Under the pieces are notes generated by a model, which did not search any database, was not told the DNA's origin, and saw only the letters and a list, made by a program, of their open reading frames with translations. A program made the position numbers and the translations under genes. Positions 7,148 to 56,090 of a DNA stretch of 64,000 nt are shown one piece after another (the first letter of the stretch is position 1; each line of letters opens with the position of its first letter). The stretch comes from Dehalobacter sp. (GTDB lineage Bacteria; Bacillota; Desulfitobacteriia; Desulfitobacteriales; Syntrophobotulaceae): assembly GCA_023667845.1 (NCBI GenBank), contig JAMPIU010000143.1, positions 312,574-376,573 on the forward strand, in the 5' to 3' direction.

Positions 7148-7159
7148 GCTCTTTTCCTC

Positions 7160-7390
7160 CTAATCGATGGTTACCGTGTGAACTTTGCTGTCAGATTTAG
7201 TAGGGTCTGTGGTTTTCGAGGTTTTGGAGCTGTTCACCAGGCATTCCACCAGCAAGTCTTTGACTTCTTTTTCGATGACGGACAGGTGTTCTCTGACATT
7301 TTCGGGCATCAGGGTTTCCAGGGCTTCTTTTTGCAGCCGTTTCGCTTCGAGCATTTTTTGGATGAATTCAGGATTAATGGTTGTATCCAT
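7160..7390 (-). CDS. Small helical protein between two ArsA-like genes
   Basis: A 76-residue, mostly alpha-helical hydrophilic protein: a helical block at about residues 8-55 (containing MLEAKRLQKEALETLMPE), then a Ser/Thr/Lys-rich tail. There is no membrane segment or signal. It has a good ribosome site and only short gaps to both neighbouring ArsA genes (12 and 14 bases), so it is almost certainly co-expressed. I do not recognise the family; a linker or adaptor for the two ATPases is a guess. Confidence 0.7.
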   Translation of the reverse strand: MDTTINPEFIQKMLEAKRLQKEALETLMPENVREHLSVIEKEVKDLLVECLVNSSKTSKTTDPTKSDSKVHTVTID

Positions 7391-7404
7391 AGGGGTGACC
7401 TCCT

Positions 7405-8574
7405 CTATTTTGGTTCAAACCGTACTGTTAGCTTGCCATCGGTTAACTTGGCGGAGCTGACCAGATGATGGCGAAGGGTTGACGGTTTCGGGATGCTGCG
7501 TTTGAAGTTACCGATTTTCAGAATCAGATCGGTTGCGGATTCGTTGAAACGGATGTCGTCTTTTTCTACAAACGGCAGATCCAGGATTAAGGCATAGCCG
7601 GTTTCGGTCTTTTCATAATGCTCACCCAAAGAAGGGGGCTGAAGCTCGAACAGTGGGCTGCTTTCGGCCAAGATATCCGCCAGGCGTCCGATGCCGCCGA
7701 CACCGTTTAAATCGCTGTCAAACCAAGGGATGCGGCGGATCGTCCTGCCGGCAAACAAACTTTCAAGTTCTTCGGTGTATTGGGTTTGGATGGCTATCCA
7801 TTCAGCAAAGAACGGATTATCCAGATCCTGCGGTAATATCCGGTTGATATACAGGCAGTCCACGTTGAAGCCGTAAAGATTCAGATACATGAAGTTGCGT
7901 TTGGTTTCTTCAACCACCATCTTTTCAGGGATCGTGACCAGCCGGATGGCCGTTAGGGCGGGATCTTTAAGCAGCGTCTGAAGTTCAAGGAGTGTGGCGT
8001 AGAGCCTTTCGATATCCGTCATGGCCTTGCGGTCAGGCAGCTGGACTTTGAAGAGCGTTTTGGATATCGGCGACAAAATCCTTAGCGCGGCCTTGCCGAT
8101 CGGGAACATTTTCTCCATATACCAGGACAGCAGTTCAGGAAATTTAAGCAGCGCCAGCGTTTCGCCTGTGGGTGCGCAGTCTACGATGATGCGGTCATAA
8201 CGGCCGCTTTGATGCAGCGCCAAGATCTTAAGCAAGGAAAACAATTCGTCCATACCCGGAAAAACGGCGAGCTGTTCCAATTGTTCACCGCCCACGCCGC
8301 TCTCGCCAATCAGGCCGAGGACGGCTTTTTTCATATCCTTGAAGTCGTTTTCCATGACGTCGTGCGGATCGATTTCCAGCAAATGCAGGCCGTTGTCCAG
8401 AACGGTGATCTCGCTGCCAAGGGTCAATTCAAATAAGTCGCCGAGGTTATGGGCCATGTCGGTGCTGACAAGAAGCGTTTTCTTGCCTTCACCGGCGGAA
8501 AGCATGGCATGGGCTGCAGCGACGCTCGTTTTGCCGACACCGCCTTTGCCTGTAAATATCAAAATCGTACCCAT
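7405..8574 (-). CDS. ArsA/GET3-like anion-transporting ATPase, first copy of the pair
   Basis: A 389-residue paralogue of the ATPase at 5981-7147, with Walker A GKGGVGKTSVAAAHA at about residues 9-23, STDMAHNLGDLF in Switch I, and DCAPTGETLALL. It also carries the C-terminal HSP20-like segment (about residue 310 on, DLPFVEKDDIRFNE). Two half-size ATPases encoded together could form a heterodimer comparable to the fused two-domain ArsA. It is preceded by the MarR gene with a 121-base gap containing the direct repeat TCACTCGATGA. Confidence 0.85.
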   Translation of the reverse strand: MGTILIFTGKGGVGKTSVAAAHAMLSAGEGKKTLLVSTDMAHNLGDLFELTLGSEITVLDNGLHLLEIDPHDVMENDFKDMKKAVLGLIGESGVGGEQLEQLAVFPGMDELFSLLKILALHQSGRYDRIIVDCAPTGETLALLKFPELLSWYMEKMFPIGKAALRILSPISKTLFKVQLPDRKAMTDIERLYATLLELQTLLKDPALTAIRLVTIPEKMVVEETKRNFMYLNLYGFNVDCLYINRILPQDLDNPFFAEWIAIQTQYTEELESLFAGRTIRRIPWFDSDLNGVGGIGRLADILAESSPLFELQPPSLGEHYEKTETGYALILDLPFVEKDDIRFNESATDLILKIGNFKRSIPKPSTLRHHLVSSAKLTDGKLTVRFEPK

Positions 8575-20053: not shown

Positions 20054-20249
20054 TTAATATGGATGTAACGAACGATTCTTTGCCACGAAGATGTTGTCAT
20101 GGTTTATTGGTGCGTATGGCATCGCAAAGCAAAATGAGTATAAATTGAAGAATTTTTCATAAATTAAGCTTATACTCAATTTATGATTATTGACACAAAA
20201 GCTTTGAAATAATTGATAAAAAGGAAATTGTAAGAAAGGAGTGGGAATT

Positions 20250-20969
20250 ATGCAGGAGAATTTTGAAAAATGGAGGGTGGGTATTCCAGATACATTTTAT
20301 CCGATAAGCGAATTGCAGAAGTATGTTCAATACGGTACTGTCAAATCTTACTTAAAAGATAGTTTAGTTGTTTTACCGGGTGAAGCAATCCATAAATTTA
20401 TCTATGTGCTTACCGGTAAATTGCAAGTAAACTTTCTGTTCAGCGATGGACGAGAACGAATGGTTTATTTTGGCGGCGAACATTGTATGTTCAACTATTT
20501 ATTTCAACACAACTCCGACAATCGTATGGCGGCTTATATTATAGCCTTAGAAGATAGCCAACTATGTTTTTTTTCTTGGGAACAGCTTGAAAAGATTTTT
20601 CATATGGATGGAAATCTTCTCTTTGAAATAATGAAAAATGAGAATGCCAAAGGCAATTTCTTTATGAAGCAGGCGGCCGAGATGGACTTTTTAAATCCGA
20701 CAATACGGATTGTGAAATTGGTTTATCAATTATGCGTTTCTCAGGGGAAGCCTGTTAATAATCATATCGAGGTCAACATTAATTTACCCTTGAGAGATAT
20801 TTCTGAAATAACCGGAGCCCATTATGCAACCGTCTCCAAAGTATTCTGCACGCTGAATAAGCTTCATATTTTAGATAGAAAGAGAGACAAGATTGTTATT
20901 TTTGATATGAGAAAGCTGGAAGAATTAACACAAGAAACACAATTATTCAAACATGATGGCACTAATTGA
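20250..20969 (+). CDS. cprK: CprK-type CRP/FNR-family regulator (first duplicate)
   Basis: A 239-residue regulator: an N-terminal beta-barrel opening IPDTFYPISELQKYVQYG, a long dimer helix preceded by AKGNFFMKQAAEMDF (which keeps the lysine that contacts the chlorophenol in Desulfitobacterium CprK), and a C-terminal HTH with ISEITGAHYATVSKVF. The ATG with GGAG upstream is preferred to GTG 20241. It is almost identical to the product at 25868 and lies in a duplicated 1-kb block. No rdh gene follows; the downstream operon encodes corrinoid methyltransferases. Confidence 0.9.
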   Translation: MQENFEKWRVGIPDTFYPISELQKYVQYGTVKSYLKDSLVVLPGEAIHKFIYVLTGKLQVNFLFSDGRERMVYFGGEHCMFNYLFQHNSDNRMAAYIIALEDSQLCFFSWEQLEKIFHMDGNLLFEIMKNENAKGNFFMKQAAEMDFLNPTIRIVKLVYQLCVSQGKPVNNHIEVNINLPLRDISEITGAHYATVSKVFCTLNKLHILDRKRDKIVIFDMRKLEELTQETQLFKHDGTN

Positions 20970-25575: not shown

Positions 25576-25867
25576 CGTGGCCGTGTTCAATCATAGCCTT
25601 AAGTTGAAGGCAAAAATATTTTTAAGCAATAAAATTAAATAGGTTATTAGCCAACCCTCAATATAACAAATACACCCTTTTGTTATAATAGCCGGGACAC
25701 TTAGGAGCATGTTGTCATGGTTTATTGGTGCGTACGGCATTGCAAAGCAAAATAAGTATGAATTGAAGAATTTTTCATAAATTAAGCCTATACTAAATTT
25801 ATGATTATTGACACAAAAGCTTTGAAATAATTGACAAAAAGGAAATTGTAAGAAAGGAGTGGGAATT

Positions 25868-26590
25868 ATGCAGGAGAATTTTGAAAAATGGAGGGTGGGT
25901 ATTCCAGATACATTTTATCCGATAAGCGAATTGCAGAAGTATGTTCAATACGGTACTGTCAAATCTTACTTAAAAGATAGTTTAGTTGTTTCACCGGGTG
26001 AAGCAATCCATAAATTTATCTATGTGCTTACCGGTAAATTGCAAGTAAACTTTGTGTTCAGCGATGGACGAGAACGGATGGTTTATTTTGGCGGCAAACA
26101 TTGTATGTTCAACTATTTATTTCAATATAACTCCGACAATCGTATGGCGGCTTATATTATAGCCTTAGAAGACAGCCAACTATGTTTTTTTTCTTGGGAA
26201 CAGCTTGAAAAGATTTTTCATATGGACGGAAATCTTTTCTTTGAAATAATGAGAAATGAGAGTGCCAAATGCAATTTCTTTATGAAACAGTCGGCCGAGA
26301 TGGACTTTTTAAATCCGACAATACGGATTGTGAAATTGATTTATCAATTATGCGTCTCTCAGGGGAAGCCTGTTAATAATCATATAGAGGTCAACATTGA
26401 TTTACCCTTGAGAGATATTTCTGAAATAACCGGAGCTCATTATGTAACCGTCTCCAAAGTATTCTGCACGCTGAATAAGCTTCATATTTTAGATAAGAAG
26501 AGAGACAAGATCGTTATTTTTGATATCAGAAAGCTGGAAGAATTAACACAAGAAACACAATTATTCAAACATGATGGCACTGATTATTAG
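25868..26590 (+). CDS. cprK: CprK-type regulator (second duplicate)
   Basis: A 240-residue paralogue of the protein at 20250, differing at scattered positions, for example VVSPGEA for VVLPGEA and AKCNFFMKQSAE for AKGNFFMKQAAE. The recognition helix reads ISEITGAHYVTVSKVF. It lies 125 bases before rdhB with the CprK box between, in the order expected for a local activator of the two following rdhBA pairs. Confidence 0.92.
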   Translation: MQENFEKWRVGIPDTFYPISELQKYVQYGTVKSYLKDSLVVSPGEAIHKFIYVLTGKLQVNFVFSDGRERMVYFGGKHCMFNYLFQYNSDNRMAAYIIALEDSQLCFFSWEQLEKIFHMDGNLFFEIMRNESAKCNFFMKQSAEMDFLNPTIRIVKLIYQLCVSQGKPVNNHIEVNIDLPLRDISEITGAHYVTVSKVFCTLNKLHILDKKRDKIVIFDIRKLEELTQETQLFKHDGTDY

Positions 26591-34756: not shown

Positions 34757-34807
34757 TTTGAGACATGATAATTTATGGGTAGAAATATTTTAGGGAGGAG
34801 ATGCACT

Positions 34808-36142
34808 ATGGATCTAAACAATGAAAAAACTGAAAGCACAAAGCAAGAAAGTACAAAACAAGAAAAGGCCTTTTCTCAAAAATTTAGCAGACGAGGTTTC
34901 TTAAAAACCTCAGTCGGAATGGGGGTTGGGGCAGCAGGTGCAGCTATGTTAGGTTACGATGGCATAGCCAATGCTGCAGAGGTCGTACAGCATGATTCAT
35001 TTCCAGTGGAAGTTTCCGCAGATTACAAACAGTATGATCAAAAAAATCAAGTGATTATGCGTGCTCTTATGGGAGATCCGGCAGTCAAGACTTCATTTGA
35101 GACGTATTTCGGGAAACACAATGCGTTGATACCGATAAATACCGGGGACGGTTATGGCAGACTTGAAGAAGCTATGGTAGCCGGCGCCTGGGGTGTAGAA
35201 GATGGACTCAATGGTTATCATGCACCGGGTTTTGCCAGTCAGGGACTCTATGAATGGAAGCCCTCACAAGTTAGCGGCAAAGTAAACCCTGATAAATACA
35301 CTTTTGAGAACCCTGAAGCAGCAAGTCAGGCTGTAAAAAGAGCCGCAAAATTTTTTGGCGCAAGTTTAGTCGGGATAGCCCCGTATGACGAGCGGTGGGT
35401 ACTTTCACATGTATTCGATATGCAAAAACTGGATAGCGTGCCCAATGAGTTCCCGTTTAAACCTACAAATGTTATTGTTATGGCCATTGAAATGGATTAT
35501 CAGGCTTTTGAAGCTGCCCCGACTGCTCTCGAACTTGTTGCTACCGGAAATATTTATTCTAATATGGGTGTATTAGTGAATAAGGTCTCTCATTTTATAA
35601 GAAGCTTAGGTTATCAGACCATACCGTGCGGCAATGATACTGCTTTAAGTGTTCCTCTGGCTATTCATGCCGGATTGGGAGAACTTAGCAGAATAGGGAT
35701 TCTTATCACTCCGGAATTTGGACCGAGACAACGGTTATGCAAAATATTTACCGACTTGCCTTTGGCTGTTGACAAACCGATTACTTTTGGGGTTACAGAA
35801 TTTTGTAAAACCTGCAGGAAGTGCGCCGACGCTTGTCCTTCGCAAGCGATATCGCATGACAAAGAGCCAAGTTTTAAAACGATAACAATCTCCACAAATG
35901 GCGGTGCAAAAAAATGGGCGTGCAATGCTGAAAAATGTTTGAAACAGTGGGCAGATGCCGGCACTGACTGCGGAATTTGTATCAAAGTATGTCCGTACAA
36001 CAAACCGAATGAATGGCATCATGACTTAGTGAAACTGGGGACAAAGACACCCGCGAGACCGATTCTGAGGTTCTTTGATGATCTGTTTGGATATGGAAAA
36101 GCAACGGTTCCTGATGCAGTAAAAGAATTCTGGAAAAAATAA
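34808..36142 (+). CDS. rdhA: RdhA of rdhABC operon 1
   Basis: A 444-residue Tat substrate (SRRGFLKTSVGMGVGAAGAA) of a group distinct from the CprA-like genes. Fe-S motifs are CKTCRKCADACP (from 333) and CGICIKVCPYN (from 388). The C-terminus is EWHHDLVKLG...ILRFFDDLFGYG rather than the KWWLEWPE ending. The start ATG follows GGGAGGAG; an earlier in-frame ATG has no such site. Substrate unknown. The rdhA gene comes first here, followed by rdhB and rdhC. Confidence 0.92.
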   Translation: MDLNNEKTESTKQESTKQEKAFSQKFSRRGFLKTSVGMGVGAAGAAMLGYDGIANAAEVVQHDSFPVEVSADYKQYDQKNQVIMRALMGDPAVKTSFETYFGKHNALIPINTGDGYGRLEEAMVAGAWGVEDGLNGYHAPGFASQGLYEWKPSQVSGKVNPDKYTFENPEAASQAVKRAAKFFGASLVGIAPYDERWVLSHVFDMQKLDSVPNEFPFKPTNVIVMAIEMDYQAFEAAPTALELVATGNIYSNMGVLVNKVSHFIRSLGYQTIPCGNDTALSVPLAIHAGLGELSRIGILITPEFGPRQRLCKIFTDLPLAVDKPITFGVTEFCKTCRKCADACPSQAISHDKEPSFKTITISTNGGAKKWACNAEKCLKQWADAGTDCGICIKVCPYNKPNEWHHDLVKLGTKTPARPILRFFDDLFGYGKATVPDAVKEFWKK

Positions 36143-36172
36143 GAATGTATTTGTGAGAAAAGGAGAGATAAT

Positions 36173-36475
36173 ATGATAATATTTTGGATGTTCCTGGGAG
36201 CACTCATCGCGTCATCTTTTTGGTTTGTCTATATCAAATTTCAGGCTGCAGGCAAAATGTCCGTAGCTCGCTGGATTTTAACGTCCATATCTGTACTATG
36301 GGGAGCTTTTACGCTGGCTTGGATTGTCAGCAGCATTGCTGAAGGTGAGATGCAGGCTGCCGGTATGGGGCTGTTAATCTTCGGAGCCATTCTTCTTGGA
36401 CTAATTATCCTTACAGTGCGGTTAAATTCTTTAATATCCTCAAAAAAGAAAGCCAATAAAGTAGAGGCCGCATAA
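36173..36475 (+). CDS. rdhB: RdhB membrane anchor, short EGEMQAAG type
   Basis: A 100-residue protein with three predicted helices (2-22, 34-55, 65-86) and the periplasmic loop motif AEGEMQAAGMGLLIFG, corresponding to the conserved Glu-containing loop of RdhB proteins of PceB type. It lies 30 bases after rdhA with AGGAGAG before the start. Confidence 0.88.
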   Translation: MIIFWMFLGALIASSFWFVYIKFQAAGKMSVARWILTSISVLWGAFTLAWIVSSIAEGEMQAAGMGLLIFGAILLGLIILTVRLNSLISSKKKANKVEAA

Positions 36476-36505
36476 TACAGTAAGGCAGATCTTACAGGAG
36501 CTGAA

Positions 36506-37780
36506 ATGAAAAACTTAGCAAATAAAATCATCTTGTTTGCAGCAGCTGCCGTATTCCTCATAACGTTAGGTTTCAGCTGGACTTATACAGATCATGATAT
36601 GATCCCATTTATGAATCAAGTTTTTCCGGAAGCGCAATCTTTTCAAAAGATTGCGTCTTCCCCTGTTATATACGAAGGAAAAACGAAAGATCAAAACGAT
36701 GAGGAAGAAAAAGTTGGTTACGTCGTAATCGAGCAAGCTGCTGCCTATGGCGGTCCGATCAAAATGGTCACCGGAATTGACTTGCAAGGAAAGATTGTAG
36801 GGACGGTTATCGCCGCCCATAAGGATACGCCATCCTTTATTGATAAAGTCATCGACCAGAAATATCTGGAGAGATTCATCGGAAAAGATATCACGGACCC
36901 TTTGTGGATTGACAAAGATGTTGACCGTATATCGGGCGCTACTTTTTCTTCCCGCGGGATTGCCAAGGCTATTTCCCAGGGCAGCCATGCCGTAGCCAGG
37001 GAGCAATTCGGGATGGATGTTAAGGATGAAGTTCAACCGTTTAAGTTCGGGTCAAAGGAAATTGCCGTCATCGCTTTGGTCATCCTGACGGTGATTGGTG
37101 TCACATTCAAACAAAGAAGACTGCGATGGGTTGCCCTGATAGGCAGTCTGGTCTTCATTGGGTTCCAATACAACACATCGATTTCCCTTGCCAACATTGC
37201 CGCACTTCTCATGGGGAATTTCCCGTCTATCCGTGAAAATTTGGTTTGGTATATCCTTTTAATCGGAATCCCGGTGATCACCTTTATAATAGGAAAGAAT
37301 GTTTACTGTTTCTGGCTTTGCCCGTTTGGCGCCTTGCAGGAAATCACGGCAAAAGTAGGCGGCGGTAAATTTAAATGCTGCAATAAAGCAATTGAAGCAA
37401 GAGCGGCTAAATTAAGGTATATCCTCATCTACCTGGCACTCATAGGTGCGTTCCTGACGAAGTCGCCGAGTTTTGCCGGTTATGAGCCATTCGCCACTTT
37501 GTTTGGCCGGCAGGGGTTTGGTATCCAGTGGCTTATTTTACCGGTCGTGTTTTTCACATCTTTCTTCATCAGCAGGTTCTGGTGCAGATTCTTTTGTCCA
37601 GGCTTGATACTCAATGAACTAATTTTGCGTCCCAGGAAATATATCATGGGGATTCTGAAAAAAGGAATCCCAAAAAAAGGGAAATTAAAAAAGGTTCCGG
37701 GGATCAAAGGAATCGAAGCAATTGAAGGAATTGAATTAAGATCTGCAAATGAATTGAATAAGATCGAGGTCAAAGAATGA
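36506..37780 (+). CDS. rdhC: RdhC, NosR/NirI-like FMN-binding membrane protein
   Basis: A 424-residue protein. An N-terminal membrane helix (about 8-25) precedes an exported FMN_bind domain with the flavinylation-type motif SGATFSS (143-149; Thr146 likely carries FMN). Five to six helices follow, with CFWLCPFGALQ and CRFFCPGLI, the two CxxxCP motifs of the family. RdhC has been proposed to pass electrons from quinol to RdhA or to aid its maturation. The C-terminal tail is lysine- and isoleucine-rich. The stop overlaps the next short gene as ATGA. Confidence 0.9.
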   Translation: MKNLANKIILFAAAAVFLITLGFSWTYTDHDMIPFMNQVFPEAQSFQKIASSPVIYEGKTKDQNDEEEKVGYVVIEQAAAYGGPIKMVTGIDLQGKIVGTVIAAHKDTPSFIDKVIDQKYLERFIGKDITDPLWIDKDVDRISGATFSSRGIAKAISQGSHAVAREQFGMDVKDEVQPFKFGSKEIAVIALVILTVIGVTFKQRRLRWVALIGSLVFIGFQYNTSISLANIAALLMGNFPSIRENLVWYILLIGIPVITFIIGKNVYCFWLCPFGALQEITAKVGGGKFKCCNKAIEARAAKLRYILIYLALIGAFLTKSPSFAGYEPFATLFGRQGFGIQWLILPVVFFTSFFISRFWCRFFCPGLILNELILRPRKYIMGILKKGIPKKGKLKKVPGIKGIEAIEGIELRSANELNKIEVKE

Positions 37781-37884
37781 AAAGCAAATTAAGTATGGGA
37801 GATATAGTATTTATCTTATTGATTTCGGCTGTCGCCATCATGATTGTGATAAGTGAATGGCAGGCTTTCCAAGCTATTTCTTAA
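37777..37884 (+). CDS. 35-residue membrane microprotein of rdhABC operon 1
   Basis: The frame starts inside the rdhC stop codon (ATGA) and encodes 35 residues: a short basic start (MKSKLSMGD), one hydrophobic helix (IVFILLISAVAIMIVI) and the tail SEWQAFQAIS. Two homologues occupy the same place in the other rdhABC operons of this window, with conserved length, start overlap and helix. Conservation in three copies argues for a real gene. No named family is recognised; a small partner of RdhC or RdhB is an inference. Confidence 0.75.
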   Translation: MKSKLSMGDIVFILLISAVAIMIVISEWQAFQAIS

Positions 37885-37904
37885 ACAAATATCTCAACTT
37901 CTCT

Positions 37905-37936
37905 ATGACCTTGGCATTTAGCCTTGGTCATTTTTA
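37905..37936 (+). terminator. Terminator after rdhABC operon 1
   Basis: ATGACC-tt-GGC and GCC-tt-GGTCAT form the stem, followed by TTTTTA. Confidence 0.7.
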
Positions 37937-38102
37937 CGTTGGCGAATTTCAGGATTCCAGATAAAGGGTATAACGGATCAAAAGCCAGGGTCGTTAGTTA
38001 TCTGGACTACTAGTTAATCTCTGTATTTTGCTATATTCTGAATGTTAGGCAGGATTATACTATTTCTTAAAATATTCTGAGTGACCTTACCACGATTTTA
38101 TA

Positions 38103-38142
38103 GACACCCGGAACGCGTGATAAAATAAATCACGGAGGTGTC
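38103..38142. repeat. Inverted repeat, possible insertion-sequence scar
   Basis: GACACC and GGTGTC flank an inner dyad CGTGAT/ATCACG. A tiny frame MRTFDKN follows it with GGAGGTGT upstream, as at the 5' end of some transposase genes. No transposase remains. Within 37937-38231 there is also a CprK-like half site (GGACTAC, 38004-38010) but no other gene. Confidence 0.35.
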
Positions 38143-38231
38143 CAAAATGAGAACATTTGATAAAAACTGATCTAAGATAGAGACTCTCCAATTTGATTTT
38201 CTGAAAATTGGTCTTAGGGGGTGAATTAATT

Positions 38232-38909
38232 TTGAAAGAAATGTTTTCTAGCATCCTCGGATCACAAAGAGTATCAAAGACTTTAATTGAAGCGGGAGAG
38301 AAAGTATTTTACAAAAAAAATACAACGATAGCTTCGCCAGGCGAAATCATTGACAAATTTTATTATATTTTAAAGGGAAGGGTATTATGTATAGAATACT
38401 CTCCTGAAGGTAACGAAAAAATAGAATTCATTCTTGAAGATGGAAGTATTTTCCTAGAGTCTAATCTGCTTTTCGATGTTCCGGCTTTTACATACTTCAA
38501 AGCAGTTGAAGATTCTTATATAATTCATCTATCCAAAAATAAACTTATGGAATTAATATTGAATAATCTGGATATATCATTATTTATTATGGAATCATTG
38601 ACAAAGAAATTTTTTTCAAGCATGTCTCGGATAGAAGAATTACTTTTTCATGATGTTGAATGGAGAATATGCAATCTTTTTATATCAATGGCCAAATCTT
38701 ATGGTATCGAAACAGAAAACATGATTAAATTGAATTTCAAAATCAGTCACCAATTTATTGGCCATTTACTCGGGATCAATAGGATCACCAGCATCAAAAT
38801 TATCAAAAAGCTTAAAGGTATGAATTATATTGAGCAAATTGACGGCTACTACTATATTAAGGATTTAAACGGACTAGAACAGTACCAGGCAAGAAAAAAG
38901 ATTAAATAA
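38232..38909 (+). CDS. CprK-like regulator, divergent subgroup, for the second rdhABC operon
   Basis: A 225-residue CRP/FNR-type protein closest to the one at 33930 (KKNTTIASPGEIIDKFYYILKG; SLTKKFFSSMSRIEELLFHD; HTH ISHQFIGHLLGINRITSIKI). A TTG start at 38232 is preferred because GGGGGTGA lies seven bases before it and none precedes 38208. It is encoded on the same strand as its presumed target, unlike the other two members of its subgroup. Confidence 0.85.
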   Translation: MKEMFSSILGSQRVSKTLIEAGEKVFYKKNTTIASPGEIIDKFYYILKGRVLCIEYSPEGNEKIEFILEDGSIFLESNLLFDVPAFTYFKAVEDSYIIHLSKNKLMELILNNLDISLFIMESLTKKFFSSMSRIEELLFHDVEWRICNLFISMAKSYGIETENMIKLNFKISHQFIGHLLGINRITSIKIIKKLKGMNYIEQIDGYYYIKDLNGLEQYQARKKIK

Positions 38910-38965
38910 TTTTCTTATAAAATACGATTTCAGATATACGAACTAGTAATTTGGGTTCACCACGG

Positions 38966-39007
38966 TAATCCAGACTACTGGTTCTCTTTTTTTCTCCATG
39001 GTATTTT
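38966..39007 (+). promoter_or_regulatory. Operator-promoter candidate of the second rdhABC operon
   Basis: GTAAT-CCAG-ACTAC (38966-38979), one mismatch from a 5-4-5 dyad, is centred 29.5 bases before TATTTT (39002-39007). The spacer and right half are identical to the site of operon 1. Confidence 0.55.
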
Positions 39008-39037
39008 GAATAAAATAAGAAAAAAGGAGGCAAAAAC

Positions 39038-40342
39038 ATGACTTTGGTCAAAGTGGATTCTGATGGAAAAAAGTTAAGGCTGAGTAGGCGGAGCTTCTTG
39101 AAAAAATCTATAGGAATGGGGGTTGGGGCAGCCGGTGCGGCTTTGTTAGGTTACGAGCTTCCTGGGGTAAACAGCGTAGCGAATGCTGCAGGCATTGAAC
39201 AACATGATACGATGCCGATGGAGATTTCGAGTGATTACAAACGTTATAATCAAAAGAATACTGTGTTTATGAGAGCTTTTCGCGGGGATCAAATTGTTCA
39301 AGCAGACTTTTTTAAGTATGTCGGGAAAAAAACCGGTGAAATCCCTCAAGAAGGCGGAGAGGGCTGGGGCCAGCTTGAATATGCTATGGATGATGCAGCT
39401 TGGTCCGTTGAGGATGATGTCAATGGCTATCATGCTCCTGGATTCGCAAATTTAGGATTATATAACTGGGAAGGAAAAGTAAGTCCTAATGCTTACAAAT
39501 TTCAAACGCCTGAACTTGCAAGCCAAGCGGTAAAAAAGGCAGCCACCTTTTTTGGAGCAGATTTAGTAGGAATCGCACCCTATGATGATAGATGGGTCTA
39601 CACGGATGTTATCACTGACCCGAAGACGGCGACTTTAAAACCAAATGTCTTCCCGTTTGAACCGACAAACGTAATCGTAATGGCTTTTGAAATGAATTAT
39701 GAAAGTTTTCAAGCTGCTCCGGCCCTGCTTGAAGGTGCTTCTGCCGGCAATATCTACTCCAATATGGGTGTAACGGCTCATAAGGTGGCAACTTTCTTGA
39801 GAAGATTAGGTTATCGGGCCATACCTTGCGGCAATGATACAGCATTAAGTGTTCCCTTGGGCGTTCACGCAGGATTAGGAGAACTTAGCAGAATTGGGAT
39901 CCTCATTACGCCTAAATATGGACCAAGAGTCAGATTGTGCAAAATCTTTACCAATTTGCCGTTAGCTGTTGATAAACCGATTACTTTCGGGGTTGCAGAA
40001 TTTTGTAAGACCTGCAGGAAGTGCGCCGACGCTTGTCCTTCACAAGCGATATTGCATGACAAAGAACCAAGTTTTAAAACTATAACGGTATCCACAAGTG
40101 GCGGTGTAAAAAAATGGGCTTTAAATGCCGAAAAATGCTTGTCCCAATGGGCACAAGTTGGAACTGACTGTGGAATCTGCGTTAAAGTATGTCCATATAA
40201 CAAACTTGATGAATGGCACCATGATTTCGTGAAGCTGGGAACAAAAACTCCAGCCCGGCCTATTTTAAGGTTTTTTGATGATTTGTTTGGATATGGGAAG
40301 GTAAGCGTTCCAGATGCGACAAAAAATTTCTGGAATAAGTAA
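39038..40342 (+). CDS. rdhA: RdhA of rdhABC operon 2
   Basis: A 434-residue paralogue of the operon 1 enzyme with signal LSRRSFLKKSIGMG and Fe-S motifs CKTCRKCADACP (from 323) and CGICVKVCPYN (from 378). The segment before the conserved QEGGEGWGQLEYAMDDAAW differs from operon 1 (AFRGDQIVQADFFKYVGKK), which may alter substrate choice. AAAGGAGG precedes the ATG. Confidence 0.92.
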   Translation: MTLVKVDSDGKKLRLSRRSFLKKSIGMGVGAAGAALLGYELPGVNSVANAAGIEQHDTMPMEISSDYKRYNQKNTVFMRAFRGDQIVQADFFKYVGKKTGEIPQEGGEGWGQLEYAMDDAAWSVEDDVNGYHAPGFANLGLYNWEGKVSPNAYKFQTPELASQAVKKAATFFGADLVGIAPYDDRWVYTDVITDPKTATLKPNVFPFEPTNVIVMAFEMNYESFQAAPALLEGASAGNIYSNMGVTAHKVATFLRRLGYRAIPCGNDTALSVPLGVHAGLGELSRIGILITPKYGPRVRLCKIFTNLPLAVDKPITFGVAEFCKTCRKCADACPSQAILHDKEPSFKTITVSTSGGVKKWALNAEKCLSQWAQVGTDCGICVKVCPYNKLDEWHHDFVKLGTKTPARPILRFFDDLFGYGKVSVPDATKNFWNK

Positions 40343-40372
40343 GAATATTTCATTGAAAAGAGGAGAGCTAAT

Positions 40373-40675
40373 ATGATCATATTCTGGTTAATTCTAGGTG
40401 CACTCATGGTATCATCTATATGGTTTGTATATATCAAATTTCAGGCTGCTGGCAAAATGTCCGTAACCCGCTGGGTTTTGACTTCCATATCCGTACTGTG
40501 GGGAGCCTTTACCCTGGCCTGGATTGTCAGCAGCATTGCTGAAGGTGAGATGCAGGCTGCCGGTATGGGACTGTTAATCTTCGGAGCCATTCTTCTTGGA
40601 CTAATTATCCTTACAGTGCGGTTAAATTCTTTGATATCCTCAAAAAAGAAAGCCAATAAAGTAGAGGCCGCATAA
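40373..40675 (+). CDS. rdhB: RdhB membrane anchor of operon 2
   Basis: A 100-residue protein differing from the operon 1 anchor only near its N-terminus (LILGALMVSSIW). From the loop on, even the DNA is nearly identical to 36318-36473, suggesting recent duplication or gene conversion. Confidence 0.9.
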   Translation: MIIFWLILGALMVSSIWFVYIKFQAAGKMSVTRWVLTSISVLWGAFTLAWIVSSIAEGEMQAAGMGLLIFGAILLGLIILTVRLNSLISSKKKANKVEAA

Positions 40676-40723
40676 CATCAGGGTAAGGCAGGACCTTTTG
40701 ACAGGAGCAAAAATGAAAAAATT

Positions 40724-41989
40724 ATGAAAAAATTTTTAAGTAATATTATTGTTTTTGTAGCAACAGTTATATTCCTCCTAACGTTGGGTTTCAGTTGGAC
40801 TCATACAGATAACGATATCATACCGTTTATGAATCAAGTTTTTCCGGAAGCGCAATCTTTTCAAAAGATTGCGTCTTCCCCTGTTATATACGAAGGGAAA
40901 ACGAAAGATCAAAGTGGTAAAGAAGAAAAAATAGGTTACGTCGTAATCGAGCAAGCTGTTGCTTATGGCGGGCCGATCAAAATGGTCACTGGAATCGACC
41001 TCAAAGGAAAAATTGTCGGGACAGTTATCGCCGCCCATAAGGATACGCCGTCCTTTATTGATAAGGTCATCGACCAGAAATATCTGGAGAGGTTTATAGG
41101 GAAAGATATCACGGACCCTCTGTCGATTGATAAAGATATAGACCGTATATCGGGCGCTACCTTTTCTTCCCGCGGGATAGCCAAAGCGGTTTCCCAGGGC
41201 AGCCATGCCGTAGCCAGGGAGCGATTTGGGCTGGATGTGAAGGATGAAGTTCAACCGTTTAAGTTCGGGTCAAAGGAAATTGCCGTCATCGCTTTGGTCA
41301 TCCTGGCGGTAATTGGCGTCGCATTCAAACAAAGAAAACTGCGCTGGATTGCCCTGATAGGCAGTTTAGTCTTCATTGGCTTTCAATACAACACATCGAT
41401 TTCCCTTGCTAACATTGCCGCACTATTAATGGGGAATTTCCCGTCTATCCGTGAAAACCTGGTTTGGTATATCCTCTTAATCGGAATCCCGGTGATCACC
41501 TTTATCTTAGGAAAAAATGTTTACTGTTTCTGGCTTTGCCCGTTTGGCGCTTTGCAGGAAATCACGGCAAAAGTGGGCGGCGGTAAATTCAAATGCTGCA
41601 ATAAAGCAATCGAAGCCAAAGCGGCTAAAATAAGATATATACTCATCTACCTGGCACTCATAGGCGCATTCCTGACGAAGTCCCCGAGTTTTGCCGGTTA
41701 TGAGCCATTTGCTACTTTATTTGGACGGCAGGGGTTCGGCATCCAATGGCTTATTCTACCGGTCGTGTTTTTTACTTCTTTCTTTATCAGCAGATTCTGG
41801 TGCAGGTTTTTCTGTCCGGGACTCATCATCAATGAGATCATCTTGCGTCCCAGGAAATATATCATGGGGATTTTAGAAAAAGGGATTCTAGAAAAAGGGA
41901 CACTGAAAAAGGTTCCGGGAATTGAAAGAACCCAAGGAATCGAAGGAAGATCTGCAAATGAATTGAATAACATCGAGGTTAAACAATGA
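40724..41989 (+). CDS. rdhC: RdhC of operon 2, behind a four-codon leader
   Basis: A 421-residue homologue of the operon 1 RdhC with SGATFSS, CFWLCPFGALQ and CRFFCPGLI all intact. The ribosome site GGAG is placed for an ATG at 40713 that gives only MKKL and stops; the real start at 40724 overlaps this stop as ATGA. The arrangement seems to result from an 11-base repeat (ATGAAAAAATT) and would make translation depend on re-initiation. Confidence 0.88.
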   Translation: MKKFLSNIIVFVATVIFLLTLGFSWTHTDNDIIPFMNQVFPEAQSFQKIASSPVIYEGKTKDQSGKEEKIGYVVIEQAVAYGGPIKMVTGIDLKGKIVGTVIAAHKDTPSFIDKVIDQKYLERFIGKDITDPLSIDKDIDRISGATFSSRGIAKAVSQGSHAVARERFGLDVKDEVQPFKFGSKEIAVIALVILAVIGVAFKQRKLRWIALIGSLVFIGFQYNTSISLANIAALLMGNFPSIRENLVWYILLIGIPVITFILGKNVYCFWLCPFGALQEITAKVGGGKFKCCNKAIEAKAAKIRYILIYLALIGAFLTKSPSFAGYEPFATLFGRQGFGIQWLILPVVFFTSFFISRFWCRFFCPGLIINEIILRPRKYIMGILEKGILEKGTLKKVPGIERTQGIEGRSANELNNIEVKQ

Positions 41990-42093
41990 AAAGCAAATTA
42001 AGCATGGGGGATTTATTATTTATTGTATTGATATCGGCTGTCGCTATCATGATTATGATAAGTGAATGGCAGGCTTATCATGCTGTTTCTTAA
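41986..42093 (+). CDS. 35-residue membrane microprotein of rdhABC operon 2
   Basis: It overlaps the rdhC stop by four bases. The product begins MKSKLSMGDLL, has the helix FIVLISAVAIMIMI and ends SEWQAYHAVS. Length and pattern equal those of the homologues at 37777 and 46172, with most changes conservative (I/L/V/M). Confidence 0.75.
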   Translation: MKSKLSMGDLLFIVLISAVAIMIMISEWQAYHAVS

Positions 42094-42258
42094 CAAATAT
42101 TTTGACTTATGTTTGTAATAATATGAAACATCGCATATAAGCAATACTCCAAAAAGTAAGTTTATTAATAATATAAAATTCACTATAGCCCTGGCTTTCA
42201 GCCTTGGTTATTTTTTCATTGGCGACTTTTACGGGGGATGGACAGTATCAGCTACCAT

Positions 42259-43047
42259 TTAAGTCGTAATTTTGGCCTGATGGTTTTTTAGCCGTTGCAA
42301 ATCTTTAATAAAATAATAGCCGTTTGTTTGCTCGATTAAATTCATTTCTTTTAATTTATTGATCACCTTTATGGCCGTACCTCTATTGACACCCAGCATG
42401 TCACTAATAAACTGCTGACTGATTTTAATATTCAGCTTTATTTTATTTTCTATTTCTATTCCAAAATTATCGGCAAATGTTAATAATAGGCGGCATAGTC
42501 TCCATTCTGAGTCATGAGCCAGCAGTTCAGTGAAAAAATAACCACTTGCTAAAAATTTGCAGGTAATCGATCGTAACATTAATAGCGTTACATCAAAGTC
42601 GGTTTGTAACAAATTCAAAAAGTTTTCTTTCTTAAAAAAAAGTAAATGCGAAGGCTCCATGGTTTTGAAATAACCATCACTAGGAATACTGAAAATTGCG
42701 TTGGCTTCCAAAAAGATACTTCCCTTGTCTATAAGGCCACATACATATTCATCACCATTTGTAGAGTATACACAAGATTTAACCAGTCCATCTTTTAGAT
42801 AATAAAATCCATCGGGGACATCTCCGGCAGAAACAAGTATCTTATTTCTGGCAAAGAAAACTTCTTCTCCTACGTCCAATAATTTTTGAGAGATATTAGA
42901 AAGTTTGATGATTTGTGTAAAATTATCTTTTCTAATTTCTTTCATAAATGGCACACTCACCTTCGATAGATTTTCCTGAAATTCATCTAGGGTATAAAGC
43001 ATCATAATTTCGTTGTTAGAGGATATTTCTTTAATATGATCCTGCAA
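42259..43047 (-). CDS. CprK-like regulator, divergent subgroup, for the third rdhABC operon
   Basis: Up to 262 residues, longer than its relatives at the N-terminus. The core (ARNKILVSAGDVPDGFYYLKDG; HTH ISQQFISDMLGVNRGTAIKV) belongs to the same subgroup as 33930 and 38232. An internal start at MKEIRKDNF (34 residues in), behind AGGTGAG, would give the usual length of about 228. It is transcribed divergently from the third rdhA. Confidence 0.82.
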   Translation of the reverse strand: MQDHIKEISSNNEIMMLYTLDEFQENLSKVSVPFMKEIRKDNFTQIIKLSNISQKLLDVGEEVFFARNKILVSAGDVPDGFYYLKDGLVKSCVYSTNGDEYVCGLIDKGSIFLEANAIFSIPSDGYFKTMEPSHLLFFKKENFLNLLQTDFDVTLLMLRSITCKFLASGYFFTELLAHDSEWRLCRLLLTFADNFGIEIENKIKLNIKISQQFISDMLGVNRGTAIKVINKLKEMNLIEQTNGYYFIKDLQRLKNHQAKITT

Positions 43048-43196
43048 TATTGTTTTGACAATATTTAGTGTACACCAATTTTTTGTCAGAGACCAGCCTA
43101 ATTTTTTTTATTACGCTTGATTCTCCCTTTTAATATTAAAACAACTAATTCTATTTTGTCCTAAAATTTAATTAATGTTGTATAGTGAACATCTGT

Positions 43197-43240
43197 TGAA
43201 TAGAGATCTATTCATTATATTTTATTTTATCTATGATATT
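43197..43240 (+). promoter_or_regulatory. Operator-promoter candidate of the third rdhABC operon
   Basis: TGAATAGA-GA-TCTATTCA (43197-43214) is a perfect 8-2-8 inverted repeat centred 29.5 bases before GATATT (43235-43240). Spacing matches the other rdh promoters although the half-site differs. Confidence 0.6.
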
Positions 43241-43273
43241 TGTAGTTCAAATATTTTAAGGAGGAGATAAGGT

Positions 43274-44563
43274 ATGATTCCTGAAAATGACAAAGAGAAA
43301 AAAACTCAGAAGAAAAAAACCTTTTCCAAAGAATTTAGCAGACGCGGTTTTTTGAAGACCTCTCTAGGAGTAGGGGTTGGAGCAGCAGGTGCCGCATTGT
43401 TCGGTTCTGAACTGCTGGGAAGTAATAGCATCGCCAATGCACAAGTTGTCGAGCATGATGACATGCCGGTGGAAATCTCCAGTGACTACAAACGGTATAG
43501 CATGGCTTCTCAGGCTCCGATTGGTGCTGTCTCTGCAGAATATGCCGGAAAAAGGTTTGGGACAATACCTCAAGAAGGAGGAGAGGGCTGGGGACAGCTT
43601 GAGTTCGCCTTTGATCATGCCTGCTGGTCGATTGAAGAGGATATCAATAAGGGTCTGGGCGCTCCGGGTTTTCAATCGCAAGGGTTATTTACTTGGGAAG
43701 GTGAAGTAAACCCCAACAAGTACCAATTTGAAAGCCCCGAAGCTGCGAGCGCGATCATCAAAAGAGTAACAAAATTCTGGGGATCATGTAAGGTCGGGAT
43801 TGGCCCTTATGATGAACGGTGGCTCTTTTCTGAAGTTCTCGATCTCGCAACGGGTAAACCTGTTCCAAATAAGTTACCGTTTACGCCTACAAATGTTATT
43901 GTGGCGCTTTTTGAAATGGATTATGACTGCTATCAGACTGCCCCGGCTTTGCCCCAAGGGGCTGCTTCCGGCAATGAATACTCCGATGCGGGTGTTCTCC
44001 TCCATAAGTTGGCTAAATTTATCAGGACATTAGGCTACCAGGCCATACCTTGTTCCAATGATACGGCTTTAAGTATTCCCTTGGCAATTCAGGCCGGCCT
44101 AGGGGAGATCAGCAGAATCGGTATTATGGTCACTAAGGAATATGGGCCGAGAGTGCGGATATATAAATTGTTCACGGATATGCCATTGGCTATTGATAAA
44201 CCGGTTACCTTCGGAGCGATGGAATTCTGCAAAACCTGCATGAAATGTGCTGACGCTTGCCCGTCACAAGCCATATCCCATGATGTAGAACCAAGTTTTA
44301 AAACATCTTCCATAACGAATCCAGGAGTCAAAAAATGGGCTCAAGATGGCGTGAAGTGTATGACCCAATGGTCAAAAGTCGGTACTGACTGCGGTATTTG
44401 TATTAAGGTCTGCCCTTACAACAAACGCCAGGAATGGCATCACGACTTAGTAAGGTTGGGCACAGAAACACCTGCAAAACCCGTTCTGAGGTTCTTTGAC
44501 GATTTGTTCGGTTATGGTAAGATTTCTGTTCCGGATGCAATAAAGGAATTCTGGAATAAATAA
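43274..44563 (+). CDS. rdhA: RdhA of rdhABC operon 3
   Basis: A 429-residue paralogue with signal FSRRGFLKTSLGVGVGAAGA and Fe-S motifs CKTCMKCADACP (from 319) and CGICIKVCPYN (from 373). It is the most diverged of the three rdhABC enzymes: tryptophan in TKFWGSCKVGIGPYDE, and cysteine changes at DHACWSIEED and IPCSNDTALSIP. AGGAGGAG lies eight bases before the ATG. Confidence 0.92.
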   Translation: MIPENDKEKKTQKKKTFSKEFSRRGFLKTSLGVGVGAAGAALFGSELLGSNSIANAQVVEHDDMPVEISSDYKRYSMASQAPIGAVSAEYAGKRFGTIPQEGGEGWGQLEFAFDHACWSIEEDINKGLGAPGFQSQGLFTWEGEVNPNKYQFESPEAASAIIKRVTKFWGSCKVGIGPYDERWLFSEVLDLATGKPVPNKLPFTPTNVIVALFEMDYDCYQTAPALPQGAASGNEYSDAGVLLHKLAKFIRTLGYQAIPCSNDTALSIPLAIQAGLGEISRIGIMVTKEYGPRVRIYKLFTDMPLAIDKPVTFGAMEFCKTCMKCADACPSQAISHDVEPSFKTSSITNPGVKKWAQDGVKCMTQWSKVGTDCGICIKVCPYNKRQEWHHDLVRLGTETPAKPVLRFFDDLFGYGKISVPDAIKEFWNK

Positions 44564-44581
44564 GAAAAGAGGAGAGGTAAT

Positions 44582-44884
44582 ATGATTATTTTCTGGTTAA
44601 TCTTGGGAGCACTCATGGCATCATCCATATGGTTCGTATATATCAAATTCCAGGCTGCAGGAAAAATGTCCTTAGCCCGCTGGATCTTAACGGCAATATC
44701 CGTGATCTGGGGAGCATTTCTCCTGGCTTGGATCGTCTACAGCATTGCCGAAGGTGAGATGCAGGCTGCAGGCATGGGGCTGTTAATCTTCGGAGCGATC
44801 CTTCTTGTCTTAGTTATCGTTACGGTACGGTTAAATTCTTTAATACCCTCCAAAAAGAAAGCTGATAAAGTAGAGGCCGCATAA
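44582..44884 (+). CDS. rdhB: RdhB membrane anchor of operon 3
   Basis: A 100-residue anchor of the EGEMQAAG type. It has drifted more than the other two (TAISVIWGAFLLAWIVYSIAEG, LLVLVIVTVRLNSLIPS) but keeps three hydrophobic helices and the basic tail. Confidence 0.9.
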   Translation: MIIFWLILGALMASSIWFVYIKFQAAGKMSLARWILTAISVIWGAFLLAWIVYSIAEGEMQAAGMGLLIFGAILLVLVIVTVRLNSLIPSKKKADKVEAA

Positions 44885-44918
44885 TTTCAGTCAGGCAGAC
44901 CTTTAACAGGAGCAAGAA

Positions 44919-46175
44919 ATGAAAAACTCAGCAAATAAAATCATTGTGTTTGCAGCAGTTATATTCCTCATAACGTTAGGTTTCAGCTGGACTCATACAG
45001 ATAACGATATCATGCCTTTTATGAATCAAGTTTTTCCGGAAGCGCAATCTTTTCAAAAGATTGCGTCTTCCCCTGTTATATACGAAGGGCAAACAAAAGA
45101 TCAAAACGGCAGCGAAGAAAAAATAGGCTACGTCGTAATCGAGCAAGCGGTTGCTTATGGCGGTCCGATCAAGATGGTTACCGGAATTAACCTGCAAGGA
45201 AAAATTGTCGGGACGGTTATCGCCGCACACAAGGATACACCATCATTTATCGATAATATTCTAGATCAGAAATATTTGGAAAGATTTATCGGAAAAGACA
45301 TCACAGATCCTTTATCCATTAACAAGGATATCGACCGGATATCGGGCGCAACCTTTTCTACAAGGGGGATAGCCAAAGCGGTTTCCCAGGGAAGCCATGC
45401 CGTAGCCAGGAGCGAGTTCGGGCTGAATGTTAAGGATGAAGTGGAACCGTTTAAGTTCGGATCCAAGGAAATTGCCGTCATAGCGTTGGTCATCCTGATG
45501 GTGATTGGCGTGGCATTCAAACAAAAAAAATTACGCTGGCTTGCCCTTTTAGGAAGTTTAGTCATCATTGGTTTCCAATATAATACGCCCATTTCGCTTG
45601 CAAATATTACCGGACTTCTCATGGGGAATTTCCCGTCTATTCGTGAAAACCTCGTTTGGTATATCCTCTTAATCGGCATCCCGGTGATCACCTTTATCTT
45701 AGGAAAGAATGTTTACTGTTTCTGGCTTTGCCCGTTTGGTGCTTTGCAGGAAATCACGGCCAAAGTAGGCGGCGGCAAATTCAAATGCTGCAATAAAGCA
45801 GTCGAAGCCAAAGCGGCTAAAATAAGATATGTACTCATCTACCTGGCACTCATAGGCGCATTCCTGACAAAATCACCGAGTTTTGCCGGCTACGAACCTT
45901 TTGCTACTTTGTTTGGCCGGCAGGGGTTCGGCATTCAGTGGCTTATCTTGCCGGTCGTGATTTTTAGTTCCTTCTTTATCAGCAGATTCTGGTGCAGGTT
46001 TTTCTGTCCGGGCTTGATACTCAATGAGATCATTTTGCGCCCTAGGAGATATATTATGGGGATTTTAGAAAAAGCCAAATTGAAAAAAGTTCGGGGAAGT
46101 AAAGGAATCAAAGGAATCGAAGCAATTGAAGTAAGATCTGCAAATGAATTGGATAACATCGAGGTAAAAGAATGA
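44919..46175 (+). CDS. rdhC: RdhC of operon 3
   Basis: A 418-residue protein with FMN motif SGATFSTRG and both CxxxCP motifs. It has a one-residue shorter N-terminal helix than operon 1 and replaces Lys by Asn at SFIDNILDQ. The long block from FPEAQSFQKI to SSPVIYEG is conserved at the DNA level among the three copies. A short in-frame tail ends VRSANELDNIEVKE. Confidence 0.9.
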   Translation: MKNSANKIIVFAAVIFLITLGFSWTHTDNDIMPFMNQVFPEAQSFQKIASSPVIYEGQTKDQNGSEEKIGYVVIEQAVAYGGPIKMVTGINLQGKIVGTVIAAHKDTPSFIDNILDQKYLERFIGKDITDPLSINKDIDRISGATFSTRGIAKAVSQGSHAVARSEFGLNVKDEVEPFKFGSKEIAVIALVILMVIGVAFKQKKLRWLALLGSLVIIGFQYNTPISLANITGLLMGNFPSIRENLVWYILLIGIPVITFILGKNVYCFWLCPFGALQEITAKVGGGKFKCCNKAVEAKAAKIRYVLIYLALIGAFLTKSPSFAGYEPFATLFGRQGFGIQWLILPVVIFSSFFISRFWCRFFCPGLILNEIILRPRRYIMGILEKAKLKKVRGSKGIKGIEAIEVRSANELDNIEVKE

Positions 46176-46279
46176 AAAGCAAATTAAGCATGGAGGATTT
46201 ATTATTTATCTTATTGACTTTGGCTGTCGCCATCATGATTGTAATAAGTGAAGTTCAGTCTCACCATGTTATTTCTTAA
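46172..46279 (+). CDS. 35-residue membrane microprotein of rdhABC operon 3
   Basis: A four-base ATGA overlap with rdhC. The protein begins MKSKLSMEDLL, has FILLTLAVAIMIVI as its helix and ends SEVQSHHVIS. The tryptophan of the other two copies is replaced by valine, so the C-terminal tail is the least conserved part. Confidence 0.75.
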   Translation: MKSKLSMEDLLFILLTLAVAIMIVISEVQSHHVIS

Positions 46280-50812: not shown

Positions 50813-51688
50813 GGTTGCTAGGTTTTATCGGTGTGAAAAAAACGGGAAACGCAAGTTCACAACAAGCTTGATTGGGAGGGAAAATGCCGGAATATGCATA
50901 TTATTCCTACCATGTAGAAGATCCTAAAGGCCTATTTAAAAAGCCTTGGGAACAATGTGTCGCCCCGGTAACTGAACGCCTTCCTTATGTTATTTCGTTT
51001 ATTATTGACCAGCATTTGGAGACGATGTCGGGTTCCACAGGGTATGACCAAATCAGTGGTACGCAGTCCTACAAGTGAAACAGCAGGTGTTGCTGTTGTC
51101 TTGGCTCAATACATCCGAAAACTTGGTTATAATGCCAGGGCTCATCATGCTAAAAATTCTCTAATGGTTTTTACTCCTGCCTTTATAGCTAGTGGGTTAG
51201 GGGAACTATCCCGTACAGGTGATACTTCAGTCCATCCTAAATTTGGATTCCGCCATAAAGGTGCTTGTGTTACTACGGATCTGCCGCTTGCTCCCGATAA
51301 GCCAATTAATTTCGGTTTACAGGATTTTTGCAAAATATGTAAAAAGTGTGCGGAAAACTGTCCAGTCCAAGCAATTACACATGATGAGAGTCCTGTTGAA
51401 TATAATGGATACTTGCGTTGGAATAGTGATTTCAAAAAGTGCTCGGATTTCCGGGCAACAAATGAAGAAGGTAATTCCTGCGGTCGCTGTATGAAAGTCT
51501 GCCCCTGGAACTCCAAGGAAGATTCATGGTTCCATCAGGCTTGGATCGGAAGCCAAAATGAAGCATCAGCCAAATTGCTCAAATCGGTTGATGACATGTT
51601 TGGCTATGGTACGGAACAGATCTTAAAATACAAATGGTGGCTGGAGTGGCCTGAACTGTTATCAATTCCGGATAAAATGCCATTCTGA
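50813..51688 (+). pseudogene. rdhBA pseudogene with internal deletion and frameshift
   Basis: The first 60 bases encode the last residues of an RdhB (VKKTGNASSQQA) and are nearly identical to 53246-53320. At the rdhA ribosome site (GGGAGGG) the sequence jumps into the middle of an rdhA, at [11 protein letters not shown]. The Tat signal and about 190 residues are lost. A frameshift at about 51070 (CAGTCCTACAAGTGA) splits the rest. Both Fe-S motifs ([23 protein letters not shown]) remain, as does the KWWLEWPE end. Confidence 0.92.
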
Positions 51689-55748: not shown

Positions 55749-56090
55749 TTAACGTTCAATCGGATTGTTTTGGGAAATCATAATGTCCATTTCAAAGCAC
55801 TCGCCCTCTTTTTTTCCGAGGGCGTTTTTAAATTGTTCTTGGAGCTTCGGGTCACCGAGGGTATATTTAAAATCTGCCATACATAATTCCGGGACAATTT
55901 GCCTCTCATAATGTGCATTTACTGAGACGATGATTTCGTCACCTATGGAAATAGGCTTATTTTTTTTTGCCCATCGGTAGGACATGTTAGAAATTGCTTC
56001 GGTTACAGCAGTGTCCAGATCAGCCTCTGAAAACATAGGTTCAGGTCTAATATTTAAGCCCTTATATTGCCCCAATTGAAATTGATGCAT
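55749..56090 (-). CDS. Trigger-factor-like PPIase-domain protein (short)
   Basis: A 113-residue protein. Its start, LGQYKGLNIRPEPMFSEADL, matches the linker that precedes the PPIase domain of trigger factor; the rest (SIGDEIIVSVNAHYE ... KYTLGDPKLQEQFKNALGKKEGE) matches the FKBP-type domain itself. Ribosome-binding and C-terminal arms are absent. Trigger-factor homologues (PceT, CprT) assist RdhA folding by binding Tat precursors; this short form between a cprK and rdhBA may do likewise. A truncated gene is the alternative. Confidence 0.7.
   Translation of the reverse strand: MHQFQLGQYKGLNIRPEPMFSEADLDTAVTEAISNMSYRWAKKNKPISIGDEIIVSVNAHYERQIVPELCMADFKYTLGDPKLQEQFKNALGKKEGECFEMDIMISQNNPIER

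Follow-up and report, generated by a model that had tools for sequence, protein, structure and literature searches.

Three rdhABC operons (34775-46279) lie in a 64,000-nt stretch of Dehalobacter sp. DNA, hereafter the window, and each is followed by a very short open reading frame that begins in the stop of rdhC. Is this frame a gene, and if so, with which protein of the operon does its product work? An earlier note on this DNA had described three 35-aa ORFs in ATGA overlap with the rdhC stop, each encoding a single hydrophobic helix, and had suggested a possible fourth subunit, for instance one that partners RdhC or RdhB in electron transfer. Coordinates and lengths proved exact, and each of the three copies encodes one helix, predicted to be N-in. 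The operons are composed as follows.

34775-36142, forward strand: rdhA1
36173-36475, forward strand: rdhB1
36506-37780, forward strand: rdhC1, 424 aa; FMN-binding and Fer4_5 domains, family assigned via 90% identity to rdhC2
37766-37770, forward strand: GAGGT ribosome-binding site of copy 1, within the 3' end of rdhC1
37777-37884, forward strand: microprotein ORF copy 1, 35 aa, one helix (predicted N-in), signature D9-x19-Q29, MKSKLSMGDIVFILLISAVAIMIVISEWQAFQAIS
39038-40342, forward strand: rdhA2, TIGR02486 above cut-off
40373-40675, forward strand: rdhB2
40724-41989, forward strand: rdhC2, 421 aa; FMN_bind and Fer4_5 matches
41975-41979, forward strand: GAGGT ribosome-binding site of copy 2
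41986-42093, forward strand: microprotein ORF copy 2, 35 aa, MKSKLSMGDLLFIVLISAVAIMIMISEWQAYHAVS
43274-44563, forward strand: rdhA3
44582-44884, forward strand: rdhB3
44919-46175, forward strand: rdhC3, 418 aa
46161-46165, forward strand: GAGGT ribosome-binding site of copy 3
46172-46279, forward strand: microprotein ORF copy 3, 35 aa, MKSKLSMEDLLFILLTLAVAIMIVISEVQSHHVIS

The GAGGT motif lies within the rdhC reading frame, 6 nt from the ATG in all three copies, and each 35-codon ORF starts 4 nt ahead of the end of rdhC. The RdhC assignment is borne out by an FMN-binding domain and two CX3CP motifs. The same genome holds a fourth copy, on contig C144, which encodes 33 aa and lies 1 nt past rdhC. 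Elsewhere in the window, a reductive dehalogenase ORF of 233 aa (50987-51688) lacks its N-terminal half and is apparently a remnant, and a short ORF on the reverse strand (55749-56090), with the start MHQFQLGQYKGLN, resembles the beginning of a PceT-type trigger factor and is apparently truncated. A pair of near-identical CRP/FNR-type regulators (20241-20969 and 25859-26590) and a tandem pair of ArsA-like ATPase ORFs on the reverse strand (5981-8574) are also present.

Since three paralogues from a single array do not count as independent evidence, chance was tested in relatives instead. Using tblastn against 61 related genomes, we detected close copies in four genomes of the genus, each directly 3' of rdhC, and more distant copies in G001, G002 and G005. 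For the 14 copies of 35 aa found in the four genomes, pooled pS was 0.33, pN 0.11 and dN/dS 0.29, far below 1 in the comparison that the earlier note had called for; identity at the three codon positions was 0.90/0.96/0.84, and past the stop it was 0.55 and then 0.43. The window-type ORFs are genuine coding sequence. In L104, L116 and L117, the rdhC stop lies 36-48 nt earlier and both GAGGT and the ATG are still kept, an argument that selection keeps them for the sake of the small ORF rather than as codons of rdhC. The microprotein ORF is best explained as a real gene whose translation is coupled to that of rdhC.

To establish how widespread this arrangement is, RdhC homologues were gathered via whole-genome and contig searches and their 3' ends scanned for a single-helix ORF of 22-90 aa touching the rdhC stop region, with a start window of -150 to +150; at least 4 nt of Shine-Dalgarno complementarity counted as a ribosome-binding site. 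The survey set comprised 87 RdhC sequences distinct in their last 120 residues, each with at least one CX3CP motif. A single-helix ORF touches the rdhC stop in 62 of them, 57 of these with a ribosome-binding site, while 20 carry an extra hydrophobic C-terminal helix, fused after a polar linker, and 5 (6-7 after curation) have neither form. Among the non-fused RdhC, 57 of 67 (85%) are therefore followed by a single-helix ORF with a ribosome-binding site. Under the same rule, 76 of 621 other ORFs of at least 200 aa from the retrieved loci match, 25 of them (4%) with a ribosome-binding site; the contrast of 85% with 4% is indicative and carries no formal test, as the RdhC set includes close paralogues and the null set may include non-genes. 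By manual curation, L070 and one L161 candidate were assigned to the RdhC without the helix and Ferrimonas L028, whose peptide falls slightly below the hydrophobicity cut, was counted by eye as split. The L070 candidate ORF was discarded for want of a ribosome-binding site, and that of L161, by eye, because it sits on a terminator-like hairpin.

A phylum-wide search provided an independent test, yielding seven RdhC, one of them cut by a contig end, and the ORF follows five of the other six. The class-wide search added no RdhC to the first sample, and plasmid searches with a PceC-type peptide and with RdhC gave no matches. The ORF is present 3' of rdhC in both Dehalobacter- and Desulfitobacterium-type genomes, where the earlier note had suggested looking for it; genus labels of the relatives are inferred from PceC identity. 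Lengths range from about 29 to 87 aa, with most relatives at 29-68 aa. The 6-7 RdhC homologues of rdh operons without such a helix include the consistent clades L070/L159 and L074/L144/L161, so the helix is not universally needed. In L176, RdhC is followed 22 nt on by a tatA-like gene in the microprotein's place. That the ORF is a small toxin or a chance frame is extremely unlikely: the product is indeed small and hydrophobic, but its strict position, its many copies per genome with no antitoxin-like feature noticed, its fusion to RdhC, the selection on it and the chance rate of 4% all argue otherwise.

The survey also reaches the model operon pceABCT. All four PceC reference peptides of PMC8905343 occur in L148 (G001) and in L101 (G034), which are thus PceC. 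The 3' end of pceC in both reads AGGAGGTAAGAATATG, with a perfect Shine-Dalgarno sequence ahead of an ATG that opens an ORF of 47 codons in another frame; it overlaps pceC by 73 nt, ends ahead of pceT and encodes METESRSIETQKKGRTRDLVFTLLILIFAVAHFVVMLQSVGILRADR. Compared across their final 24 codons, all of them at or past the rdhC stop, the ten members of this PceC type show a dN/dS of 0.05 and a codon-position identity of 0.91/0.98/0.60. The ORF has its own Shine-Dalgarno sequence and ATG, which speaks against the alternative of a ribosomal frameshift in PceC. A transcript spans the pceC-pceT junction (PMC8905343), which places the PceC-type ORF on the operon mRNA. It is conceivable that translation of the microprotein ORFs matters, through coupling or protection of the mRNA end, and the peptide does not, and both the stop-start overlap and the conserved ribosome-binding site would fit; purifying selection at the amino-acid level (dN/dS 0.05-0.29) and the natural fusions to RdhC make this very unlikely.

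Searches of Pfam and NCBIfam with six microproteins returned no significant family. The ORF is not mentioned in the accessible parts of papers on PceC topology (PMC5928378), pce stoichiometry (PMC8905343), the PceA2B2 structure (PMC10624902), Desulfoluna (PMC7031245) and Dehalobacter genomes (PMC4751268). A conserved gene at or inside the end of nearly every sampled rdhC is absent from these family libraries and from the literature searched, as far as its accessible text goes. A gene family has thus been passed over, many of whose members lie inside the 3' end of another gene.

As to the partner, the microprotein tracks rdhC rather than rdhA or rdhB, and the same helix is C-terminal in natural RdhC proteins; the partnership that we infer with RdhC is therefore well supported. 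Of the two partners put forward in the earlier note, RdhC stands, and RdhB is not supported, given that rdhBA operons without rdhC lack the ORF and that fused forms exist where neither rdhA nor rdhB was found. For one group of fused proteins, the retrieved stretches contain no rdhA, and the helix therefore goes with proteins of the RdhC type rather than with dehalogenases in general. The microprotein might instead be an independent small subunit of RdhA-RdhB, for example a stabilizer of the membrane anchor, its position after rdhC being incidental. It is co-encoded with rdhAB, and RdhB, small and integral to the membrane, could accommodate a further helix. Yet the ORF does not occur with rdhAB irrespective of rdhC, as expected of a fourth RdhAB subunit: none follows the window's seven rdhC-less rdhA genes or fragments, and RdhC-like fusions occur without rdhA nearby, as in L073, where the fused protein lies beside NrfD-, TorD- and ferredoxin-like genes with no rdhA in the retrieved stretch. 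Moreover, the cryo-EM structure of PceA2B2 was described with only two types of subunit (PMC10624902). On these grounds we regard an RdhA-RdhB subunit as improbable. With regard to the electron transfer suggested in the earlier note, the menaquinol:organohalide oxidoreductase as purified consists of PceA2B2 and lacks PceC, with menaquinone bound at the PceA-PceB interface (PMC10624902); PceC is outnumbered by PceA about 50-fold (PMC8905343). A further RdhC-like protein with a fused seventh helix, L139 (2995-4293; G000 C143 near 230 kb), has no rdhA found nearby, and its gene group includes NrfD-, TorD- and ferredoxin-like ORFs.

Sister proteins can differ in form, the fused and split states having interconverted. 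L118, from the single-contig genome G002, is one fused frame of 472 aa with the C-terminal end MKFEINLKDVVFLVLISSIILMIVVNMFQIYLNR, and in its sister L084 (G005) the split is at offset 0, with RdhC, a stop and then MNVKMNLKDVVFLVLISSIVLLIVVNMFQIYLSR. The clade of the two has support of 100/100, and their helices are near-identical. On a tree of 86 RdhC cores with the helix excluded, the fused state requires five changes and the split state six. With a profile of the fused helices (L118 left out), 27 of 60 split peptides scored in the top 5% of their own shuffles, which keep helix and flank composition, where 3 are expected; the window types are among them, except copy 3. The spacing [DE]x19Q occurs in 9 of 26 split representatives below 45% identity (shuffle mean 0.4, maximum 3) and in 2 of 10 fused representatives (shuffle mean 0.13).

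These data also bear on whether the ORFs, although real, are non-homologous across RdhC clades and were recruited independently, as CydX, CydY and CydZ were. The other 33 of the 60 split peptides fall outside the top 5% of shuffles, including those of Desulfoluna and Omnitrophota, and the range of about 29-87 aa would also be in keeping with separate origins. On the other hand, position, orientation and start region are all the same, the [DE]x19Q spacing recurs in the diverged representatives, and several clades are linked by fused helices, so that we consider independent recruitment rather unlikely. The split peptides of Desulfoluna and Omnitrophota, the most divergent ones, show no sequence homology to the fused profile, and position is what argues for their common descent. 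In L116 and L117, the rdhC body comes from one clade, while the rdhC tail, like the microprotein, is that of the window clade; recombination in the rdhC 3' end has moved their microprotein between clades, and the pairing or co-evolution of RdhC and microprotein is consequently not strict.

Returning to the RdhC partner helix, Lys and Arg are richer ahead of the helix than after it in 53 of 60 peptides. The predicted topology is thus single-pass, with a cytoplasmic N-terminus and the C-terminus outside. In the published topology of PceC (PMC5928378), the first of six helices is followed by an FMN domain on the outer side, which would put the RdhC C-terminus inside, and an N-in microprotein fits this arrangement. 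An AlphaFold2 model of L027 RdhC with the microprotein read through gave a modelled RdhC core with a helical membrane part and an added helix with pLDDT below 50, for which almost no aligned rows existed. Foldseek and sequence searches gave matches to RnfG/NqrC-type FMN domains only. The microprotein would associate with the six-helix flavoprotein RdhC as a seventh transmembrane helix supplied in trans and, like CydX, may fill a groove in the helix bundle and support RdhC folding, stability or cofactor geometry; its conserved Gln would lie at the outer end of the helix, on the FMN-domain side.

The likeness to CydX (with CydY and CydZ, of cytochrome bd; PMC4325964) is one of kind. CydX too has about 35 aa and one transmembrane helix, is encoded with a clear ribosome-binding site at the operon end of a membrane respiratory enzyme, was long overlooked and is restricted to particular partner clades (PMC4325964). 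The microproteins share with it a small size, 35 aa in the window against an upper bound of about 50-60 aa for this kind, one hydrophobic helix and a gene encoded with the partner under its own ribosome-binding site (57 of 67 non-fused RdhC). However, no sequence relation was found, as none of six members matches a CydX/CydZ model in Pfam or NCBIfam. The partner here is an FMN flavoprotein, fused versions exist, the gene often overlaps the partner's 3' end, and the microprotein is known here from sequence, whereas function has been demonstrated for CydX. CcoQ and KdpF are likewise single-helix subunits, single-pass peptides of larger membrane complexes, although their partners are unrelated. 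Within the RdhC/PceC family (PMC5928378), fused members carry the helix within the RdhC chain itself; in contrast, six helices are published for PceC (PMC5928378) and five for Desulfoluna (PMC7031245), and the accessible text of neither mentions a seventh helix or a separate microprotein.

Taken as a whole, a coupled gene encoding a separate helix 7 of RdhC, with a CydX-like role, is the probable explanation. A further step, possible but on balance doubtful, is that RdhC is a two-chain, seven-helix protein whose last helix has repeatedly been split off and re-fused, that a subunit so far missed is encoded between pceC and pceT, and that the outer Gln aids quinol or FMN-domain binding in the electron path; if so, work on PceC may have suffered from constructs and purifications that lacked this subunit. 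Studies of PceC have so far treated it as a six-helix protein on its own. Should the helix belong to RdhC, the model operon pceABCT would comprise five genes, and the microprotein should be included in studies of RdhC expression, topology and complexes. It offers a directly testable handle on RdhC and a marker separating RdhC lineages. In Omnitrophota (L031, L032 and L033), RdhC/NosR-like genes with no rdhA nearby are followed by an overlapping or abutting single-helix ORF, whose product carries a longer outer tail.
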